Origin: an uncultured Acidimicrobiales bacterium
Lineage (GTDB): Bacteria; Actinomycetota; Acidimicrobiia; Acidimicrobiales; SHLQ01
Length of the DNA: 33,101 nt
Reading direction: 5' to 3'
NCBI GenBank assembly: GCA_938040365.1
Contig: CALHXU010000241.1
Location: 1 to 33,101, forward strand
In this document: positions 1,605 to 20,045 of the stretch, in pieces
How positions within the stretch are numbered: the first letter of the stretch is position 1
Layout: each line of letters starts with the position of its first letter
The notes under the pieces: generated by a model
Told to the model about the DNA's origin: nothing
Seen by the model: the letters and a program-made list of their open reading frames with translations, nothing else
The model's database searches: none
Made by a program: the position numbers and the translations under genes

Positions 1605-3749
1605 TTGAAGTCCCTTTTTGAGCATTGCGAGGCAACAATTCACCCCGAACTCGAAGCCGAACAGAAGTACCTAGATTTCGCGCACGGATGTCTTGATGAG
1701 TCACGTGAGATGGCTCGCAAGTTGTCCGATTCGCTTGAAGTTGGCGCGGGTGGCACGAACCAAGCTCGGTTCGAACGCGAAGCGTTCACCGAGAACATCG
1801 TCGACCGTCTACAACAGCTCGACATTGGTGACGCGTCGTTGATCTTTGGCCGGATCGACCACGGCGGCGAGTACGACGACACGCTCTATATCGGTCGGGT
1901 TGGTGTGTGGGACCGCCAGCAAGATCCTGTGGTCGTCGATTGGCGCGCGCCGGCGAGCGAGCCGTTCTATCGGGCGACCGGTGGCGACTCGTTTGGCCTG
2001 GAACGGCGACGCCACTTTACGACTCGTGGCAAGACCCTGCTCGATATCGACGATGAACTCTTCGGCGACCTCAGCCGCCTCGACGCCGCGGGGGTCGACG
2101 GCCAAGGCGGTGTGGATGAGGTGGACGGCGCTTCGAGCGGGCGCAGAAAGATTCAAGGCCACGGCGCGCTCATCACCGCGCTCGAAACCGCTCGCACGGG
2201 ACGCCTCGGCGACATCGTGGCCACGATCCAAGGCGAACAAGACGAGATCATCCGGTCTCGCCTGCAGGGCTTGCTCGTCGTGCAAGGTGGCCCGGGTACC
2301 GGAAAGACCGTTGTCGCGCTGCACCGCGCTGCGTACCTGCTTTACTCGCACCGCTTCCCGCTCCAAGACCAAGGTGTGCTGGTCCTCGGCCCGAACCGGT
2401 TGTTCTTGGCCTACATCGAACAAGTCCTTCCCAGCCTCGGTGAAGCCGGTGTGCGCTTGGCGGTGCTTAGCGATCTCGTAACGCCGAAGGTCCGGACCGA
2501 TCGCCTCGGGTCCGAAGCCGCAGCCGCGGTGAAGGGTGGGCTCGACATGGTCGAGTTGATCCGTCGGGCGGTGCGCCAGCGACAGAACAGGCTGCGAACT
2601 GACTTGGTCGTGGGGTTTGGGTTGCAAAACCTCCGCTTGACCGTGTTCGAGAGCGAGCAGATCATTTCCGAGGCCCGTCGCCGCTTCCGCACGCACAACG
2701 CTGCACGGAAGTTCGTCGAGAACGAAGTATTTGCAACGCTCGCAAATAGTGGGCGAGAAGAGGTCGACCCAGGAGTCCTGCGTGATCGCATTCGTTGGAC
2801 CTACCCAATTCGCGAGACGCTCGAGTGGATGTGGCCCGTGCTCACGCCAGCCCAGCTCTTGCACGATCTGTTCCGCAGCCCTTCTCTTCTCGAGGCTGCT
2901 GGGCGAAACCTCTTCACCGTGGAGCAACTCGCCACGCTTCGCCATACGAGCGAGGTTCATGTCGATGCGCTCGTATGGACCTTCGACGATGCGCCGCTGC
3001 TCGACGAAGCTCGGGCGCACCTCGGCGCGCGGCCAGGTAGAAGGCAGGTCGACGAGGTCCGAACGTATGGTCACATCGTGATCGACGAAGCCCAAGATCT
3101 CGCGCCCATGGCGCTGCGGATGATCTCGCGTCGATCGCTCAACGGGTCGATGACGGTGGTCGGCGACCTCGCGCAGTCGACGGGTTCGTGGGCTCGCGAT
3201 TCGTGGGACGATGTTATTGCTCAGCTTCCCTCGAACGTGAAGCATGGGCCGATCCGCAAAGAACTCACCACTGGCTACCGAATACCGGCTCCTGCTATGG
3301 CGTTGGCGGCAAAGGTGCTCACCGAGGCTGCTCCGGGCCTCGAACCTCCGGTGGCGATTCGCGATGAGGGAACCGCACCGATCATCACCAAGGTTGACGA
3401 CGTTGTAGCAGCGCTACCCGACGCGATCCGCAAAGAGCTCGCCGAGATTGGTCAGGGCAATGTCGCGGTCGTCGTGCCGCGTTTGCTCGTCGAACCACTG
3501 ACCGCAGCGCTCGAGCGCGCCCAAGTCGATTTCGGTCGAGCCAGCAGGTCCGGTCTCGACCGCCAAGTAGCGGTCGTCCCGGTGCAGCTGGTCAAGGGGC
3601 TCGAAGTCGATGCTGTGCTGGTGGTCGAACCATCACGAATCGTTTCTGAAGAGCGCCAAGGTATGCGTGCGCTGTACGTAGCGCTCACAAGAGCGACAAA
3701 GCGGGTCGGCATTGTGCATGCCGACCCGCTTCCTCGCGTACTTCTCTAG
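1605..3749 (+). CDS. helD: HelD/HelR-like UvrD-family helicase (RNA polymerase recycling ATPase); TTG start uncertain
   Basis: 714 aa; N-terminal HPELEAEQKYLDFAHGCLDES, Walker A VVQGGPGTGKTVVALHRAAYLLY, DEAQDLAPMALRMI, C-terminal ALYVALTRATKRVGIVH. Confidence 0.85.
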   Translation: MKSLFEHCEATIHPELEAEQKYLDFAHGCLDESREMARKLSDSLEVGAGGTNQARFEREAFTENIVDRLQQLDIGDASLIFGRIDHGGEYDDTLYIGRVGVWDRQQDPVVVDWRAPASEPFYRATGGDSFGLERRRHFTTRGKTLLDIDDELFGDLSRLDAAGVDGQGGVDEVDGASSGRRKIQGHGALITALETARTGRLGDIVATIQGEQDEIIRSRLQGLLVVQGGPGTGKTVVALHRAAYLLYSHRFPLQDQGVLVLGPNRLFLAYIEQVLPSLGEAGVRLAVLSDLVTPKVRTDRLGSEAAAAVKGGLDMVELIRRAVRQRQNRLRTDLVVGFGLQNLRLTVFESEQIISEARRRFRTHNAARKFVENEVFATLANSGREEVDPGVLRDRIRWTYPIRETLEWMWPVLTPAQLLHDLFRSPSLLEAAGRNLFTVEQLATLRHTSEVHVDALVWTFDDAPLLDEARAHLGARPGRRQVDEVRTYGHIVIDEAQDLAPMALRMISRRSLNGSMTVVGDLAQSTGSWARDSWDDVIAQLPSNVKHGPIRKELTTGYRIPAPAMALAAKVLTEAAPGLEPPVAIRDEGTAPIITKVDDVVAALPDAIRKELAEIGQGNVAVVVPRLLVEPLTAALERAQVDFGRASRSGLDRQVAVVPVQLVKGLEVDAVLVVEPSRIVSEERQGMRALYVALTRATKRVGIVHADPLPRVLL

Positions 3750-3817
3750 GTTGTAGGTAATCGCACATGACCCGAAGGTGGCCGAGTGCGACTGCCTGCT
3801 GTGATTGCCTCGTGTGA

Positions 3818-6046
3818 CTACTCGGTCAGCGTTGGTGCTGTCGAGATTTCGAGGTTTGTTGGGTACGGCGAATCGAAGACGGGTCGTCCATTCGCAATGG
3901 CCGAGTCGGCATCGAGCGTGAGCGACACCGAAGGTGGGTTTGGCGAGATGTCGTTCAATCCCGTGAGATCGAGGACACCATCGGTTGCGAGTAGGTCGAC
4001 GGTCGTCGCTCCACCGATAGGGAATGCCGTTCCGTCTGGAAGCGTGATCGTTGCTTCGAGCAGTGTCACGTCGGCGAGAAGTCCTGCTGGGAGGGTGACG
4101 GCGCCCCAGCGAGAACCAGCGTTCTCGTCTTCACAATCACATGGAATGATGTCGGTCGTGATTTGCACGTCGACGCACGGGCCGAATCCGACAGGGTTGA
4201 AGGAGAAGAACACGGCCTTGTGACCAAGCCCGAGCACGCAACGGTCCGAGATCTGGTTGAATCCGTACGGAAATGCGTCGCCAGCTGAGGTGAATGGGTT
4301 GTTGGTGACAATCGAGTCCCCTGCACCATCTGTGCATGGTCCGCCGTCGGCTCCTCCGGCGTTCCAGTTCCAGCAGCCGACTCGGTTGGAGTCTCCGCCG
4401 GCGAAGAACGTGCGTTGATTGTTCCACGTGTAGGCGTCGCCACCGTAGGAACCACCGTTGAGTCCGGCGAAACCATTGCCCAGACCACTGAGTGAGTGGG
4501 CGCTTCCTGCACTCCAATCAACGCAGACGTTGTTTCCGGTCTGGATGTCCAGCACGCAAACACCGTTCGGTGTGTTTTGCGATGGATTCGAATTGTTGGG
4601 GGCGTAGCGGGTGAAGGTCAGGTTGTTGCCGACACCGTTGGCGAGGCTAGGCGCAAAGTGTTGACCACAGTGCGACACCACACCCGAGGCGTTCGAGAGG
4701 TCGAGGCAGCTGAATTGCACACCGGTGGCAGTGTCTTGGGTGACGATTAGCGTCGAACCGTTCTGCTCGCCATTTGCGATGTACGTGTCATTACTCTCGC
4801 CAGCGCCAGGGAAGAACGGTGGGAGTCTGGACGTATCTGCTCCGGGAACGGCGTGTGGCCCTGAGTTGGGTCCACAGAGCTGAAGGTCGAGGGTTGCACA
4901 TGCAACTTCGCCGTGTTGGGAGATGACGTAAAGACGGTTCTGGTACTCGAACGGACCATGACCGTGAATCCACGCTGGTTGGGTCACTGCGGGCGACGAG
5001 TTCCAGAGAGCGATGAACTCGTTGCTGCAGTAGTCCCTCGACTGTGGATCAAAGCAGGCAATGCCAAGTGCTCCAGCACCTGGCCTGCGAGCAGCGAAGT
5101 AGATCTTGCCGTCGTCTGCCTGGAATTCGATTGGACGGTTGCCGGTCTGATAGCGGAGTTGCCATCCGTCATCGGCCGTGTTGCCTCCTGGGCAAGGGTC
5201 GCCCAAGTTGCCGTCGGGTCCGTTGTCGAGCAGGCGGCAGAGGATTTCACCCTTGTCGCTACCATTCGAGTGGTGGTTTACCGCCCACGCTTCATCGAAG
5301 ATTCCATCGTCGTCACGGTCATAGAGCAATGGTCCGTAGCCATCACCATTACCGGTGCCGGCAAAGCCAACGAACGGCGGGTTCAAGATGATCTCGTTGT
5401 CGCAAACAGCGCCGCAGTTCGAAAGCAGCGACTGGGCGCTGCGTTCGATTTCAGGAGCGTCGCGAAGGATGTTCGAGAAGTACTGCTCACCCTCGCGGGT
5501 GATGCTCACGTCGATGAAGCGAACAAAGGTTGGGTTGTTGTTCAGGCCGGTGCCCGACTCGGCGAAGCCACGGGTGATCGTGATGACCGAGCCATCATCG
5601 GCGGTAAGCGTCGCGGTCGAAATGTGATCCGCGTTTCCAGGAATTGGCGGCGTTGGGTTTGGAACAGCGGCGAAGACGAATGCAGGAGGTGAACTAAAGA
5701 CGAGACCGCTGGTCTCGAGGAGTGCCTGCACCTGTGCGACCGCCTCTTGGAACGATTGCGCCTCGACGGCCTGCTGTTGTGCGGGCGTGAGGTCGGTCCA
5801 GCGAGTGGCCCCCAGTGACGCGAACTGGGCCTTGCTTGTGCGGTCGAACGTCGCAATGCCATTGAGTGAGCCAACGTCGGCAGCGCGCTGCTGCTCTTCG
5901 GTCTGGCGATACCACGCCCCAAGGTCGGTGGAGAACGCCGCAATAAAGAGCATGAGGAGCATCACGAGGGCGGTGAGCACGAGGATTGCGCCGCGTTCTT
6001 GTTCAGAACGGTCAATCCGGGCACGGAGGTCGGCAAAATAGTTCAC
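3818..6046 (-). CDS. TadE/TadG-like membrane-anchored secreted protein with Cys-rich repeat (putative beta-propeller) ectodomain
   Basis: Likely GTG start at 6046 (VNYFADLRARIDRSEQERGAILVLTALVMLLMLFIAAFSTDLGAWYRQTEEQQRAADVGSLNG), a typical TadG-like N-terminal anchor; the ORF-track start at 6319 would overlap lhr. Confidence 0.75.
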   Translation of the reverse strand: MNYFADLRARIDRSEQERGAILVLTALVMLLMLFIAAFSTDLGAWYRQTEEQQRAADVGSLNGIATFDRTSKAQFASLGATRWTDLTPAQQQAVEAQSFQEAVAQVQALLETSGLVFSSPPAFVFAAVPNPTPPIPGNADHISTATLTADDGSVITITRGFAESGTGLNNNPTFVRFIDVSITREGEQYFSNILRDAPEIERSAQSLLSNCGAVCDNEIILNPPFVGFAGTGNGDGYGPLLYDRDDDGIFDEAWAVNHHSNGSDKGEILCRLLDNGPDGNLGDPCPGGNTADDGWQLRYQTGNRPIEFQADDGKIYFAARRPGAGALGIACFDPQSRDYCSNEFIALWNSSPAVTQPAWIHGHGPFEYQNRLYVISQHGEVACATLDLQLCGPNSGPHAVPGADTSRLPPFFPGAGESNDTYIANGEQNGSTLIVTQDTATGVQFSCLDLSNASGVVSHCGQHFAPSLANGVGNNLTFTRYAPNNSNPSQNTPNGVCVLDIQTGNNVCVDWSAGSAHSLSGLGNGFAGLNGGSYGGDAYTWNNQRTFFAGGDSNRVGCWNWNAGGADGGPCTDGAGDSIVTNNPFTSAGDAFPYGFNQISDRCVLGLGHKAVFFSFNPVGFGPCVDVQITTDIIPCDCEDENAGSRWGAVTLPAGLLADVTLLEATITLPDGTAFPIGGATTVDLLATDGVLDLTGLNDISPNPPSVSLTLDADSAIANGRPVFDSPYPTNLEISTAPTLTE

Positions 6047-6080
6047 AGTGTGTCTACGGCACTTTCGTGCCCGAACTGTG
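6044..6080 (-). promoter_or_regulatory. Hairpin over the start codon of the TadG-like gene (GNRA tetraloop)
   Basis: mRNA sense CACAGU-UCG-GGCAC-GAAA-GUGCC-GUAGACAC-ACUGUG; the final GUG is the proposed start codon. Confidence 0.5.
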
Positions 6081-6217
6081 TAGGCAAAAAGTACCGAAAC
6101 ACCGGACTTCGCGTGACACTTGTCTCTCAAGGGGAAACTTCGCAGCGTTTCAGCCACTTTCCTCTGCTTGAAGCGCTCGATCTGAGAGAAGTTCCTCAGC
6201 CAAAGTATGTTTTCGGA

Positions 6218-9200
6218 GTGTCGCACCCATCGCTTGAGGAATTTTCTGCGCCAGTACGCGCGTGGTTCGAGACCTCGTTTCCCGAGCCGACGCCGCCGCA
6301 ACGTCTCGGCTGGCCTCATATCGCTACCGGAGCGAACAGCCTGATCGTGTCGCCGACCGGGTCGGGTAAGACGCTTTCAGCGTTCCTGTTCGGCATCGAC
6401 AAGCTGATGACGAGCCCCGTGCCCGAACGCGAGTCGCGGACTCGGTTGCTCTACATTTCGCCGTTGCGGGCGCTGGCGGTCGACGTCGAAAAAAACCTTC
6501 GCTCACCGCTTCGTGGAATCACGCTTGCAGCCGAGCGGCTCGGCACCGAAATCCACATCCCAACCGTTGGCATGCGCACTGGTGATACCCCAGCTGACGA
6601 GCGCCGAAAGCTCGTTCGTAACCCGCCCGACCTACTCATTACAACTCCCGAATCGCTCTACCTGATGTTGACATCGGCGGCGAAGGAAACGCTGCGGAGC
6701 GTCGATGCGGTCATCATCGACGAGATTCATTCGGTGGCGGGCACAAAGCGCGGCGCCCATCTCGCGTTGACAATGGAGCGACTCGAACATCTCGTGGGCC
6801 GGCCGGTGCAACGGATCGGCCTGTCTGCAACGCAGCGACCGCTCGATGAAATCTCGCGCTTTTTGGGCGGCCGCTCGGCCGTCGATGGCGTCCACACGTG
6901 GCGCCCGGTCGAGATCATCGATGCGGGCGCCGACCCAAACATGGACATCGAAGTCATCGTTCCGATCGAGGACATGGCAGAGCTTGGCAAGGTCACCGAC
7001 GAACCAATGTCGGGACCAGCATCGGCGGGCCCGCAGCGCACGAGCATCTGGCCGTCGGTTCACCCCCGGATTCTCGATCAGATCAAGGAGCACAATTCGT
7101 CGATCGTCTTTGTGAATTCGCGCCGACTGGCCGAACGTTTGGCTGGCCGGCTCAACGAGATGTGGGACGAAGAAGACGAGCTGGCCGCCGAAGCCGACGA
7201 CGAAGGAGTGGCCGAAACCGAGCAGTTTCAGCGCATTCGGGCCCATCACGGCTCGTTGTCGAAGGTTCGCCGCCTCGACATCGAAGATCAGCTCAAGCGG
7301 GGGGCGATTCGGGCCATCGTTGCCACGAGCTCGCTCGAACTCGGCATCGACATGGGGGCGGTCGACCTCGTCATCCAAGTCGAGTCACCCGGCTCGGTGA
7401 GCCGCGGGCTACAGCGGGTTGGTCGCGCTGGCCACCAAGTGGGCGCGAAGTCGATCGGCAAGGTGTTCCCAAAGCACCGATCTGATCTGCTCGAGACAGC
7501 GGTGGTCGTCGACCGGATGTACCAGGGCGAGATCGAAGAGACCCGATACCCACGCAACCCGCTCGACGTTTTGGCCCAGCAGATCGTTGCGATGACGGCG
7601 CTCGAAGACTGGGAACTCGACGAGCTCGTGGCGACGATTCGAAGCTCGGCGAACTTCTCGGAGCTCTCCGACGAAGTATTCGAAGGCGTTCTCGACCTGC
7701 TGTCTGGGCGCTACCCGTCAGAAGAGTTCAAGGAGCTTCGGCCACGGGTGGTGTGGGATCGCGTTGCCGGAACGATTCGAAGTCGCAAAGGTGCGCAGCG
7801 CCTCGCGGTCACAAACGCGGGAACCATTCCCGACCGTGGCCTGTACGGCGTGTTCTTGCCCGACGGTACGCGGGTGGGTGAACTCGACGAGGAGATGGTC
7901 TATGAGTCTCGGCCAGGCGAAACGTTCTTGCTCGGAGCCTCGACCTGGCGCATCGAAGACATCACCTTCGAACGCGTCGTCGTCACGCCCGCACCTGGCG
8001 AACCCGGAAAGATGCCCTTCTGGCATGGCGATGGTCCTGGGCGCCCAATCGAACTGGGTCGTGCGATGGGCGCATTCATTCGCGAGATCCAAGATGGCGA
8101 TACGAATGCCGCCACCGAACGGTTGGTGAAACGGCACGGCCTCGATCCGCTCGCTGCCGGAAACGTTCTCAATTACATTTCCGACCAACGCGAATCGACC
8201 GGCGTTGTACCCGACGATCAAACGATCGTGGTCGAACGGTTCCGCGACGAGATCGGCGACTGGCGAGTTTGCCTCCTGTCGCCATTTGGCGCCCAAGTAC
8301 ACGCGCCGTGGGGAATGGCATTGCGGGCACAACTCGCCGAACGATGGGGGATGGACGTCGAGATGATGTGGGCCGACGACGGCATCGTCATCCGCCTACC
8401 CGAAGCGACCGAAGAGGTCTCGCTCGATGACCTCATGATCGACCCGAACGAGATCGACGAACGGGTCGTGGCAGAACTACCCGGAAGCGCGCTGTTTGCG
8501 AGTCGTTTCCGTGAGTGCGCTGGCCGATCGCTTCTGCTGCCGCGCCGCCGGCCAGACCAACGAACGCCGCTGTGGCAACAGCGTCAGCGGGCCGCAGATC
8601 TTTTGGCGGTTGCGGCGAAGTATCCGAGCTTTCCCATCCTTCTCGAAGCAACCCGAGAATGCTTGAACGATGTGTTCGATGTCCCTGCGTTGCGCACGGT
8701 CTTGCAGGGATTGTCCGAACGGTCGATTCGTATGGTTCCGGTCGAGACGTCGAAAGCGTCGCCGTTTGCCCAATCGCTTTTGTTCGGTTGGATCGCCGTC
8801 TACATGTACGAAGGCGACGCGCCCCTAGCCGAACGTCGGGCTGCAGCGCTGTCGTTGGACCGAGAGCTGCTACGTGACCTTCTCGGCGCCGAAGAGCTGC
8901 GCGAGCTGCTCGACCCCGGCGTGCTTTCCGATCTCGAACTCGAACTGCAACGCCTCGTCGACGGCCGCCGCGCTCGAGATGGGGACGAGCTGCACGACCT
9001 CTTGCGAATCCTCGGACCGCTCGACCGATTCGAGATCGACGCGCGCTGCACCGAAGACGTCGACATCGACAGCACCCTCGCGCAACTGGCGAACGACCTT
9101 CGCGTCATCGAGGTCGGCATTGGTAACGATCGCCGGTTCTGTGCATCTGAAGATGCTGGTCGGTTGCGCGATGCCTTCGGCGTGTCCGTGCCCATTGGTC

Positions 9201-10708
9201 TTCCCGCTGCCTACACCGACAGTGTCGACGACCCGCTCGGCGATTTCGCGATGCGATTCGCTCGGACGCATGGCCCCTTCGTCACCGAACAGTTCGCCGA
9301 CCGGTACGGCATCTCGGTCGACCGTGCCCACGGCGCCCTCGACGCACTCGCCGTTCGCGGCAAGCTACAGCGCGGCGAATTCAGGCCCGATGGAAGCACC
9401 CGAGAATGGGTCGACGAAGCAGTTCTGAGTCAGCTTCGCAGGCGATCGCTCGCAGTTCTCCGGGCCGAAGTTGCGCCGGTCGAACGCAACACGCTCGCTC
9501 GGTTCCTTCCTCAGTGGCAGGGGGTGGGCATTCCTCGACGCGGCGCCGATGGCCTCGCCGACGTGCTCGTGATCATGCAAGGTGCTGCGATTCCGGCCTC
9601 GGTGCTCGAACGATCGGTGTTGCCCGCACGTATGGCCGAGTACCGCCCGGCCGACATGGACGCACTCATGACCTCGGGTGAAGTCATCTGGGTTGGGGCG
9701 GGTGCGATTGGCTCGAAAGATGGACGAATTCGGCTGGCATTCCGAGACCAAGCGGGGCTGCTTATCTCGCCGACCACCGACCCACCCGACGATCCGCTCC
9801 ACGACTGTCTTCGTTCGCATCTCGCCACGAACGGGGCCTCGTTCTGGTTCGACCTGCTCGGCGCGGCACAAGCAGTCGGGCTGCAATATGGCGATAAGGC
9901 CGTGCTCGCCGCGTTGTGGGACCTCGTCTGGGCGGGCGAAGTCACCAACGATTCACTCGCCCCGGTGCGAGCATTCGTCGGCGCCAAGAAAGCTGGATCT
10001 TCGACGCGGCAGCGACGGCCGAGAGTCGGCCAGATCCAAGCTGCGGGGCCGCCCCAGGCTGCGGGCCGCTGGTCGCTCGTCTCGACCGTCCTTTCTCCCC
10101 AGGCACCCTCGACACAACGAGCAACGGCCCAAGCGCTGCAACTCGTCGAGCGCTACGGCGTGCTTACACGAGAGGCCGCACTCGGCGAAGGCATCACCGG
10201 AGGGTTCGCTGGGGTCTATCCGATCTTGAAAGCCCTCGAAGACCGCGGCGACCTCCGACGCGGCTACTTCGTCGAAGGCCTGGGCGCAGCACAGTTTGCG
10301 CTCCCCGGAGCCGTCGATCGATTGCGAACCTCCGCCGCCACCGACTTCGAGGAAGACTCGGTTCTCTTGCTCGCCGCCACAGACACCGCGCAGCCATTCG
10401 GCGCATCACTCCCGTGGCCCGAATCAGATGGCCGGCCAGCGCGAGCCACCGGTGCCCACGTCGTGATCGTCAACGGCGAGGCGGCGATCTACATCGACCG
10501 CGGCGCAAAGACGATCGTTTCGTTCGCTCAAGCTCGAGAAAACGCCCTGTGGGTAGATGCGGTCAAAGACCTCGCCCGCAAACGCCTCGTTCGATCGATC
10601 GAGATCGCAAAAATCGACGGCGCTCCAGCATCTGAATCACCACTCGCCGAAACCCTCATCGAACACGGCTTCGTCAAGGCCTACAAAGGCATCACCTGGG
10701 TGCCTTAA
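6218..10708 (+). CDS. lhr: Lhr-family large ATP-dependent DEAD/DEAH helicase (start probably GTG 6218 rather than TTG 5999)
   Basis: [98 protein letters not shown]; ~1500 aa. Confidence 0.95.
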   Translation: [1496 protein letters not shown]

Positions 10709-16353: not shown

Positions 16354-17703
16354 GTGTCTACCTCGTTTATCCGGCGGAACCTGCTTGTCACGCTCTGCGC
16401 ACTGACGCTCATCCTTGCCGCCTGTGCAGGTGGCGAGGATGGCCAAGTCGCTACCGGCGACGGCGACCCCGCCGCAACGCTGCAACCTGCAGAACGAGGA
16501 GAGGAAATCGAAACCCCGCAGGGTGACCCGGTTTTGGCCGGAGATCCATCAACGCCCAGAGGGCTCACCGTCGTCGGGACCACCGAAGGGTCCATCGATC
16601 TCGTTTGGGATGAATCACGCGACGCCGACGTCACTCGATACCGCGTCCTTCGCACCGCGACCGGCGGCGCATCCACTTCGTTTGATGTGCAGGGCAGTTC
16701 GTTCAGCGACGGGGGACTCGAAGAAGGCGATGTCTTCAGCTACCGGGTCGTCGCCCTTCGCGGCGACGCTGAAAGCGCTCCAAGCGAGAGCGTCGTAGCA
16801 CGCGTCGGGATCGACACAAATGCTCCCCGCCGTCCCGGGCGACCGCTCGTTGAAGAAACCCCCGGTGGTCAAATCCTTACGTGGATCCCCACCCAAGATG
16901 TCTCTGGTATCGCTACCTATGTTCTGACCCGCGAGGTCGATGGCGACGTGACCACTATCGATGTTGGTTCCGAACCGATCTACCGCGACGATCTTCCCGC
17001 GGGGACGGTCGTGACCTACAGCGTTCGCGCCGTCGATGGCGTCGAAAACGTTAGCGAGCCGAGCCGCAGTACGACCTTGCTTACCGGCACCCCATCGGAC
17101 CGAGTCGCCGTTGTCGTTTCGGCCCAGGCCGACCCGGCAAACAACGCAGGCACAGCTCGTTTCGAACGCGAGCTCCTCGACGCAGGGTTTACGATCTCGT
17201 GGTTCGAAGACGGCGTCTTTGATAGCAACGTCACAAACAGCGACGACATCGTGATCCTCCTCGGTGATGTCGTAGGTGAAGGTTTCGACTGGAACGTCTT
17301 TGTTTCCGATGCGACCGTCATTGGGCTGAAGGCGCCGTTCGTGAGCGCCGGCGGGTTCAGCGATGTCGCGCTGAAGCTCGATCGCATCCAAACGATTGCC
17401 TACGATTCGCCTACCGCCGAGCAACGCTTCATCCCGATCACGGTCACGAGCGAGCCAAAGCCCGTCGTCATCATTCCGCCAAATGAGCAGATCCCCGACC
17501 TCGACGTGTGGGCAACTCCAGACTTCTCTGCAGAGCTCGCGATCGCTGGCATCATCCCGGCTGGTGGCGAGCTAGCGAACGGACGTGAAGCGGTTGGTTG
17601 CCGTGCGTTCTACCCCGGTAACACCGATGCCTTTGCCGAGATGAGCGAAGCCGGATGGAATGTGCTGATCGAGTTCATCGGCGACGTCGAAGCCGCCTGC
17701 TAG
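16354..17703 (+). CDS. Secreted lipoprotein with fibronectin type III-like domains and an unassigned C-terminal domain
   Basis: GTG start; signal peptide RRNLLVTLCALTLILAAC (lipobox); two Fn3-like stretches (STPRGLTVVGTTEGSIDLVWDES...; RRPGRPLVEETPGGQILTWIPTQD...). Confidence 0.75.
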   Translation: MSTSFIRRNLLVTLCALTLILAACAGGEDGQVATGDGDPAATLQPAERGEEIETPQGDPVLAGDPSTPRGLTVVGTTEGSIDLVWDESRDADVTRYRVLRTATGGASTSFDVQGSSFSDGGLEEGDVFSYRVVALRGDAESAPSESVVARVGIDTNAPRRPGRPLVEETPGGQILTWIPTQDVSGIATYVLTREVDGDVTTIDVGSEPIYRDDLPAGTVVTYSVRAVDGVENVSEPSRSTTLLTGTPSDRVAVVVSAQADPANNAGTARFERELLDAGFTISWFEDGVFDSNVTNSDDIVILLGDVVGEGFDWNVFVSDATVIGLKAPFVSAGGFSDVALKLDRIQTIAYDSPTAEQRFIPITVTSEPKPVVIIPPNEQIPDLDVWATPDFSAELAIAGIIPAGGELANGREAVGCRAFYPGNTDAFAEMSEAGWNVLIEFIGDVEAAC

Positions 17704-17735: not shown

Positions 17736-20045
17736 CTACGTCAATCCGAGGACCTGGTCGAGTAGTCGAATCGCTGCGTGTTTGTCGAGCGGTTCGTTTC
17801 CGTTGCCACACTTCGGTGATTGCACACACGACGGGCATCCGTCCGAGCACGCGCACGCCCGCATCGAGTCGCGGGTCGCTCGAAGGTGGCGGTCTCGTTC
17901 TTTGAAGCCGAGTTCGGCCACGCCCGATCCGCCAGGGTGAGCGTCGTAGATAAAGATGCTCGGCCCGCCAGCGCCCGAATGCCACGGGGTCGATACTCCA
18001 CCGACGTCCCACCGGTCACAGATCGTGAAGAGCGGCAACATGCCGATGCCTGCGTGTTCGGCTGCGTGGAGCGCGCCGGGAACCTCGGAAGCATCGACGC
18101 CTGCCGCTGCGATGATGCCAGCGGGAACGACATACCAGAACGAGCGGGTGTGCAACGTCGACGGTGGAAGGTCGAGCGTTTCGTTGCTGAGGATTCGCCT
18201 GCTCCGGACCTCGCGGCGCTGGTAACCGGTGACCTGGCTGGTCACCTCGACAGCGCCGACAAATACCTCGACCTGCTCATCTCCGCTAGGTACGCCGACA
18301 AGGCCGTGGTCGTCGGCCTTCACGACCGAAATATCGATCTTGGTGCGGGCTTGGGTGTACTCATTGCCATCGGCATCTTCGACCGTCGCAACTCGATCGT
18401 CGAGGTCGAGTTCGGTCACTCGGTACGGCTTTCCTTGATGCAGATACACCGCTCCGGGGTGGGTGACCGAACATGCTCGGGCCGAATCGACCGTACCGAC
18501 GATCGAGCCATCCTTTCGGACGATCTGGACTTCGTCGGAGCTGCCCGAACGAAGGCCGATGCCGCGTGATGGCCGCCCGCGCCCGGCATAGACCGCCAGC
18601 GGTGAACCAGTTCCTGATGGCTTTAGCTTGAGCCCGTCGTCGAGTACGCAGTCACGCACGCCGTCGTCGAGTGCGTCGCCCCAATACGAGTCGTCGGTGC
18701 GGGCGAGTGGCTTTTCGAAGGCAGCACACTTCAGGTGCGGGCCGAGGATGAACGGGTTCGTCGGGTTGATGACCGCCCGTTCGGGCTCGCGGGTGAGCAG
18801 CTCGTTTGGGTGCGCCATGATCCACTGGTCGAGCTGATCGTCGCCCGCGACCAGTACCGCCGTACTCGACTGATGCCCCCGGCCTGCGCGACCCATCTGT
18901 TGCCACATCGACGCGACCGTGCCCGGAAACCCGTTCAGCACGCACGCTTCGAGGCCGCCGACATCGATACCTAACTCGAGCGCAGAGGTCGCCACCACGC
19001 CGCTAAGCGTCCCCTCGAAGAGTTCGTGCTCGATCGTTCGGCGTTCGTGTGGCAGGTAACCAGCACGATACGAACGGACGCTGTCCTCTTTCCCCTTGGG
19101 AAGCCGACGGGCAATATCGCCGGTGATCAGCTCGGCGCCACGGCGACTCCGGCAAAAGACGATCGTGCGGTGATCGTTGCGAATGAGTTGGGCCGCCACG
19201 CTCGCTGTTTCGGTGTTCGACGACGTTCGAATGCCCTGCACCTCGTCGACGATCGGCGGGTTGAGCATCACGATCGTTCGCTCACCGCGCGGCGAGCCGT
19301 CGTTGGTCACCTCGGTGACTGGAACGCCACATAGTTCGCTCGCCAACTCGCCTGGAGCGCCGATCGTCGCCGACGTGAAGATGAACGTTGGGTCAGAGCC
19401 ATAGTGATGGCACAGGCGACGAAGCCGGCGAAGCACATGGGAGACGTGGGTACCAAAGACACCGCGAAGGACGTGAAGCTCGTCGATGACGACGTGGTCG
19501 AGGCGGCCGAGAAAGGTCGCCCAGCGGGCATGACCAGGGAGTATCGCGGCGTGGAGCATTTCGGGGTTGGTCAGCACCACATTGGCGGTCGAACGAACCC
19601 ACGTCCGCTGCTCGGGTGTCGAATCGCCGTCATATGTTCCAGCGACGACCTCGGGGAATCGCATCGTGCTGATCGCGCGCAGCTGATCTTGCGCGAGGGC
19701 CTTGGTCGGAAACAACATCAAGGCCGTGCCCATGTTGCCGGGCCGCGCCGCGGCTTCGGCGACGGGAATCTGGTAGCACCGTGACTTCCCCGATGCCGTG
19801 CCAGTTGCGATCACGACGGAATGGTTGGCGCGAATGAGGTCGATCGCTTCGGCCTGGTGGGTGAACAACCGCTCGTTTCCGAGCGCCTCCACGACGCCTG
19901 GTGAGATCGGCGCGATCGAATTTGCGTACCGTGCTGGCCGACTCGGTTGGCGTTCTACATGGGCGAGTCGCCCATCTTCGGCGAGCTGGTCGATCAGCTC
20001 AGAAAACGGCGGAAGGTTGTCTACGGGGGCCTCCACGATCGCCAT
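17736..20045 (-). CDS. DEAD/DEAH helicase with C-terminal MrfA-type Zn-binding (MZB/DUF1998) domain
   Basis: IATGTASGKSRCYQIP, DELHVLRGVFGTHVSHVLRRLRR, ATSALELGIDVGGLEACVLNGFPGTVASMWQQMGRAGR, C-terminal CACSDGCPSCVQSPKCGNGNEPLDK. Confidence 0.92.
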   Translation of the reverse strand: MAIVEAPVDNLPPFSELIDQLAEDGRLAHVERQPSRPARYANSIAPISPGVVEALGNERLFTHQAEAIDLIRANHSVVIATGTASGKSRCYQIPVAEAAARPGNMGTALMLFPTKALAQDQLRAISTMRFPEVVAGTYDGDSTPEQRTWVRSTANVVLTNPEMLHAAILPGHARWATFLGRLDHVVIDELHVLRGVFGTHVSHVLRRLRRLCHHYGSDPTFIFTSATIGAPGELASELCGVPVTEVTNDGSPRGERTIVMLNPPIVDEVQGIRTSSNTETASVAAQLIRNDHRTIVFCRSRRGAELITGDIARRLPKGKEDSVRSYRAGYLPHERRTIEHELFEGTLSGVVATSALELGIDVGGLEACVLNGFPGTVASMWQQMGRAGRGHQSSTAVLVAGDDQLDQWIMAHPNELLTREPERAVINPTNPFILGPHLKCAAFEKPLARTDDSYWGDALDDGVRDCVLDDGLKLKPSGTGSPLAVYAGRGRPSRGIGLRSGSSDEVQIVRKDGSIVGTVDSARACSVTHPGAVYLHQGKPYRVTELDLDDRVATVEDADGNEYTQARTKIDISVVKADDHGLVGVPSGDEQVEVFVGAVEVTSQVTGYQRREVRSRRILSNETLDLPPSTLHTRSFWYVVPAGIIAAAGVDASEVPGALHAAEHAGIGMLPLFTICDRWDVGGVSTPWHSGAGGPSIFIYDAHPGGSGVAELGFKERDRHLRATRDSMRACACSDGCPSCVQSPKCGNGNEPLDKHAAIRLLDQVLGLT

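Follow-up and report, generated by a model that had tools for sequence, protein, structure and literature searches.

Modular surface proteins in which a binding domain is grafted on a pilin-like or membrane anchor are known, and vWA and lectin heads are among the best studied. The orphan CpaL of Caulobacter crescentus, whose gene lies apart from the pilus cluster, is predicted to fuse a Tad minor-pilin-like module to a vWA domain (PMC12607857). Modular pilins are widespread, while PilY1 is not itself a pilin (PMC8179133); PilY1/PilC proteins place a propeller (PF05567) at the tip of type IV pili and are Cys-rich in some lineages (PMC13190605). Stapling of a propeller by disulphides has been described in Plasmodium, where five of the blades in the non-enzymatic PfCyRPA contain one sequential disulphide apiece and the closing blade is unstapled (PMC5349852).

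Here we describe a gene carried on a 33,101-nucleotide stretch of DNA (the window) from an uncultured Acidimicrobiales bacterium, whose lineage is environmental and known mostly from metagenomes. The first-pass annotation, made from the sequence alone, had proposed that the encoded protein displays a disulphide-stapled beta-propeller on a Tad-type anchor and that this architecture is undescribed. In agreement, a literature search covering mostly papers outside subscription journals found none that combines a TadG- or TadE-like segment with a propeller.

Results

Gene and domain organization

The gene occupies positions 3818..6046 of the reverse strand, stop included, and all features of its product given below lie on that strand. 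It encodes 742 amino acids from a GTG start, and this gene model is supported by its relatives, whose alignments begin at residues 1-15. The proposed TadE/G-type N-terminus was recovered as PF13400, the sole Pfam match in the protein, at residues 19-61 (5864..5992; 24.9 bits, cut-off 22.3). Between this membrane segment and the propeller, residues 62-205 (5432..5863) form a helical stalk and a small beta module, with AlphaFold helices to residue 112 and strands at 143-185. The predicted beta-propeller domain spans residues 206-640 (4127..5431) and is followed by a C-terminal beta-rich module at residues 641-742 (3821..4126), in which AlphaFold places strands at 660-668, 707-715 and 728-735.

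NCBIfam gave no above-threshold match for the protein, and searches of PDB sequences with the protein and two profiles returned nothing meaningful. As judged by these sequence comparisons, the propeller domain is an undescribed family that neither Pfam nor NCBIfam models cover. Weak Pfam matches of two members to RPE65 and KIB1-4 were not repeated with the wide alignment and were rejected.

Location relative to Tad pilus genes

The gene had been called an orphan, and this description holds: Pfam scans of the window ORFs, with small ORFs scanned in part, found no tadA/B/C or flp, and a neighbourhood test in which some contigs were short placed no T2SSE pilus ATPase near the propeller gene in any of 13 genomes. 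In the genome of the window, T2SSE ATPase, T2SSF, CpaE-like ATPase and TadG-like genes share contig C211, and the propeller gene is on a different contig. The sole contig among the 13 genomes to carry both a T2SSE and a propeller gene (G391:C20) has them 77 kb apart. Since a T2SSE ATPase is present somewhere in every genome tested, both across the whole genus and in the 13-genome set, simple co-occurrence with Tad genes is uninformative.

Minor pilins of the TadE/TadF class have a prepilin site with Glu or Phe at position +5 after the Gly. In the window protein (RGAILVL) and its relatives this residue is hydrophobic, versus RGQATVE in a TadE of the same genome. Thus, an uncleaved TadG-type anchor is likelier than a classical minor pilin, and the anchor is probably not processed as a pilin. 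Other TadG-like proteins of Acidimicrobiales share the PF13400-type N-terminal segment and carry a different ectodomain, typically with a PMGSPEN motif, that does not match the propeller profile.

By analogy with the proposals made for CpaL and PilY1, the TadG-like helix could nevertheless enter, or dock on, a Tad pilus built from a distant cluster, with the propeller acting as a tip adhesin or mechanosensor. The parallels are the equally orphan CpaL with its predicted pilin module and vWA domain (PMC12607857), the breadth of modular pilins (PMC8179133) and the propeller of PilY1, which can be Cys-rich (PMC13190605); in addition, the genome of the window has the pilus genes of contig C211, and a T2SSE ATPase occurs in all genomes of the genus. 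We nonetheless regard a pilus-tip role as unlikely, in view of the hydrophobic +5 residue, of the gene never lying beside a pilus ATPase in the 13 genomes, and of relatives that reach the surface through non-pilus anchors (see below).

Cysteine pairs

The protein has 18 Cys residues in nine pairs, and seven of these pairs fall one per repeat. In both the sequence and a 26-member alignment, the seven are C270/C285 (5192..5239), C331/C340 (5027..5056), C383/C391 (4874..4900), C447/C460 (4667..4708), C497/C508 (4523..4558), C558/C571 (4334..4375) and C603/C624 (4175..4240). The first Cys residues of successive pairs are separated by 45-64 residues, the size expected of propeller blades. The seven Cys segments quoted in the first-pass annotation are present letter for letter between these residues, and its count of about seven pairs at blade-like intervals was right for the repeats and missed two further pairs. 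One of them, C211/C215 (5402..5416), sits at the junction of anchor and propeller and belongs only to the Tad-anchored side of the family; its columns hold Cys in 16-17 of the 26 rows and are blank in the sortase-tailed and other forms. The other is a closing PCxC pair after the propeller, C636/C638 (4133..4141), each position of which is Cys in 19 of the 21 rows aligned there.

Comparison of motifs among the members yields a repeat unit of the form strand - C - [FWV] - D - xx - T - xxx - C. When the 11 proteins of the genus are aligned, 17 of the 18 Cys columns are all Cys wherever a residue is aligned; in the window protein, an indel moves the second Cys of the fourth pair out of register, and at the third pair a single row has a gap. 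In the wide alignment, whose 26 members include sequences sharing as little as 18% identity with the window protein, there are 12 invariant columns, and every one is a Cys of these pairs. Paired Cys residues lie mostly on or beside neighbouring strands of the AlphaFold model, which fits cross-strand staples. Together, the conserved pairs and the predicted strand positions suggest that disulphides probably form within the blades.

Predicted fold

Two AlphaFold2 predictions, which overlap in sequence and draw on the same relatives through input alignments of 11 sequences, both give a beta-propeller: the whole protein with a pTM of 0.61 and a mean pLDDT of 74.7, and residues 204-640 alone with a pTM of 0.76 and a mean pLDDT of 69.2. 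In Foldseek searches of the PDB, most of the top 50 matches of the whole model are propellers, as are nearly all of those of the isolated domain, for which BamB comes first and the list also includes the eight-bladed design Tako8, WDR5 and NHL domains. The query-normalised TM-scores of the isolated domain against its top PDB matches are mostly 0.35-0.46, with rmsd values mostly of 7-9 A. A search of a viral fold library returned propellers and unnamed phage proteins, the relevance of which is not clear. Thus, the proposed propeller is supported for residues 206-640 at moderate model confidence. The models are compatible with seven stapled blades and possibly an eighth, unstapled one.

Sequence models point in the same direction at sub-threshold level, PF13360 (PQQ_2/BamB) being the commonest weak Pfam match (4 of 26 members, best E 0.041); among NCBIfam models, TIGR03300 (BamB) gives the best of the weak matches (E 0.049). 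Since both models score under their cut-offs across the 26 members, we do not claim PQQ_2/BamB membership. The PQQ repeat follows the pattern strand - x - [A or C] - h - D - xx - T, which resembles the repeat of the window protein; Cys pairs are not part of it.

Propeller enzymes among the PDB matches of the whole model are GH43, a sialidase-type enzyme, prolyl oligopeptidases and a lyase, in line with a catalytic propeller (glycosidase, lyase or quinoprotein-like) that the anchor holds at the cell surface. We judge an extracellular enzyme to be improbable, as no catalytic-type residue is conserved: beyond the invariant Cys columns of the wide alignment, near-invariant positions amount to an N-terminal DG, one D and one Y, and Pfam gave no above-threshold match to an enzyme family. 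A fold other than a propeller, in which a Cys-rich beta repeat (a solenoid or a string of hairpins) was forced into a ring by the prediction, would be in keeping with the 11 aligned sequences, the mean pLDDT values of 75 and 69 and the rmsd values of the domain search, but appears very improbable given that two predictions and the fold searches converge on propellers, that BamB emerges as the foremost weak match in Pfam and NCBIfam from sequence alone, and that the repeat length fits blades.

Distribution and anchors

Full-length proteins are encoded in 9 of the 11 genomes of the genus, including that of the window, with identities of 32-45%; those relatives whose public records carry titles are metagenome assemblies of Acidimicrobiales. 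In one genome (G006), the propeller gene is present in three tandem copies. Searching the order with an ectodomain profile detected the domain in 30 of 397 genomes, which represent 17 of 203 genera. With a wider profile, 21 of 395 class genomes were positive, as were 5 of 397 at the phylum level, and one of these 5 lies outside the order. The propeller domain is thus present in about 5-8% of the sampled genomes of the order and class.

The first-pass annotation had placed the propeller on a Tad-type anchor. This stands for the window protein and its nearest relatives: PF13400 is matched at E <= 1 in 10 of 11 close members, the eleventh being truncated by a contig end, and at E <= 0.01, in some cases below the cut-off, in all 12 order-level members classed as Tad-anchored. 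The domain as such is not tied to Tad, since relatives carry sortase-type tails or a dockerin. The tailed forms (L101, L102, L104, L106 twice, L112 and L116) have no Tad segment; their C-termini consist of LALTG, LAFTG, LAVTG or LPFTG, then a hydrophobic stretch and basic residues. Extra domains beside the propeller are a dockerin (L099), DUF7507 and SdrD_B (L102), fn3 and Ig-like domains (L107), and fn3 with DUF6923 (L114). Cell-wall tails of the LAxTG type and dockerin, fn3, Ig-like and SdrD_B domains typically occur in proteins that are secreted or exposed at the surface.

A maximum-likelihood tree groups the Tad-anchored heads, with the dockerin form nested within them (inner group support 100/99), and separates them, at moderate support (84/80), from the sortase and other forms. 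Presence of the C211/C215 pair distinguishes the Tad-type side. The profile searches and the tree describe the propeller domain as a family found across the order and riding on several kinds of anchor.

Three individual cases deserve mention. The dockerin form (L099 3589-5394, genome G153) is a propeller of the Tad lineage in which a dockerin replaces the Tad segment, and the same genome also has a Tad form (L094). Within the genus of the window, G007 encodes a Tad-anchored form together with a 1461-aa protein (L102 1260-5642) that combines a distant propeller with DUF7507 and SdrD_B repeats and a LAFTG tail. Propeller genes at L108 6131-7757 (G203), L103 1485-3430 (G346) and L111 5996-7798 (G181) are interrupted or split over several frames, and are possibly pseudogenes or assembly errors.

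The uvrD-lhr site and exchange of the head

The propeller gene lies between two helicase genes of the forward strand, a convergent UvrD-like gene at 1605..3749 (PF00580) and a divergent lhr gene at 6137..10708 (WH_Lhr, DEAD_assoc), whose true start is probably near 6205, where its relatives begin to match. The same two genes flank the propeller gene in G005, G006, G007 and G010, and on a contig end in G008. At this locus, the UvrD-like and lhr proteins are 69-82% identical, versus 33-42% for the propeller protein. The two helicase genes are adjacent, and the site empty, in G002, G003 and G009, and about 6.3 kb of unrelated genes fill it in G001 (L056 5712-11500). The gap between uvrD and lhr (window 3749-6205) is an optional insertion site.

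In G006, two of the three tandem copies do not differ over a stretch of 652 bases that starts 101 bases upstream of the gene and reaches codon 183, at the border of the propeller, where identity drops abruptly; past this border the heads share 52% protein identity with a dS of 1.18, versus a dS of 0 in the anchor. A similar break is seen between G007 and G010: one flank is 79-96% identical, the other 94-100%, and the anchor about 82-85%, whereas identity falls to 42-55% in the ectodomain. The break-points lie near codon 76 and immediately ahead of the stop; between these two species, the ectodomain alone has been replaced. Assembly chimerism is an unlikely cause of this pattern, as it needs two joins within one contig at gene-internal positions. 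Synonymous sites of the head are near saturation (dS 2.2), indicating replacement by recombination and not only fast change of the protein. Positive selection on the head was considered but is not supported, since dN/dS stays below 1 in those pairs that allowed its calculation. These sequence patterns show that anchor and head recombine, the head apparently being exchanged as a cassette while the anchor and the neighbouring genes stay constant.

A second location is shared by G003 (L136 9290-11371) and G001 (L137 6233-9364); there, the next gene in both genomes is a large one (832 and 815 aa) whose products resemble each other at the N-terminus, and a similar enzyme gene comes after it. Elsewhere in the window, positions 17736-20045 of the reverse strand encode an HRQ1/MrfA-type helicase (DEAD, MZB, WHD_HRQ1), so that the window carries three different helicase genes, and positions 16354-17703 of the forward strand encode a 449-aa ORF in which Pfam assigns one fn3 domain and nothing else.

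Discussion

Taking these data together, we lean towards a cell-surface recognition or adhesion protein with a predicted propeller head and a putative, ligand-directed binding function. The helical stalk would be held by a single TadG-type membrane helix with a short cytoplasmic tail, and a BamB/PQQ-like propeller would be seated on the stalk, presumably outside the cell. In each of seven blades, the Cys pair would probably link two neighbouring strands as a disulphide, and such staples could keep the ring folded outside the cell and under pulling forces. Variable loops on one face of the propeller may bind the putative ligand, which could be the surface of a partner cell, a polymer or a matrix. 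The head would behave as a cassette that recombination swaps, leaving the anchor and the neighbouring genes unchanged, and replacement of a head on a constant anchor is what is expected of a surface receptor under pressure to change its specificity.

More tentatively, the family as a whole may represent a general scaffold for surface recognition in Acidimicrobiales, in which a propeller with one disulphide per blade is combined with anchors of the membrane, cell-wall and dockerin kinds, is multiplied into tandem copies, and has its heads exchanged by recombination while the anchor stays constant, as a cassette system for changing surface specificity. The pattern of constant anchor and exchanged head gives direct access to the question of how surface specificity may change in these bacteria, and marks the propeller domain as a candidate for an adhesin, a phage receptor or a module of partner recognition. 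With its unusually regular Cys pairing, it is a new type of head, outside the searched family libraries and common to unrelated anchors. A stapled propeller could also serve as a robust scaffold for protein engineering.

Among known propellers, BamB is the closest, being both the best PDB fold match and the best weak sequence match (PF13360, TIGR03300). As a lipoprotein, BamB belongs to the outer-membrane BAM complex of diderms, whereas the window protein scores below the thresholds of these models and is anchored by a TadG-type segment. PilY1 likewise presents a surface-exposed propeller that is Cys-rich in some lineages, but its Cys residues are not described as one pair per blade in the part of the report available (PMC13190605), and Pfam scans of the genus members and of the wide 26-member set gave no match to PF05567. 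The resemblance to PfCyRPA, which is eukaryotic and has a six-bladed sialidase fold, is one of principle and concerns the stapling alone (PMC5349852). With CpaL, the protein shares a Tad-type N-terminal membrane helix, a large C-terminal functional module and a gene located away from the pilus cluster (PMC12607857); it differs in having a Cys-paired propeller in place of the vWA domain and in lacking the prepilin site with Glu or Phe at +5. Modular anchored surface proteins as such are already known, and what this locus adds to them is a domain family found across an order, carried by several anchors and exchanged as a cassette.
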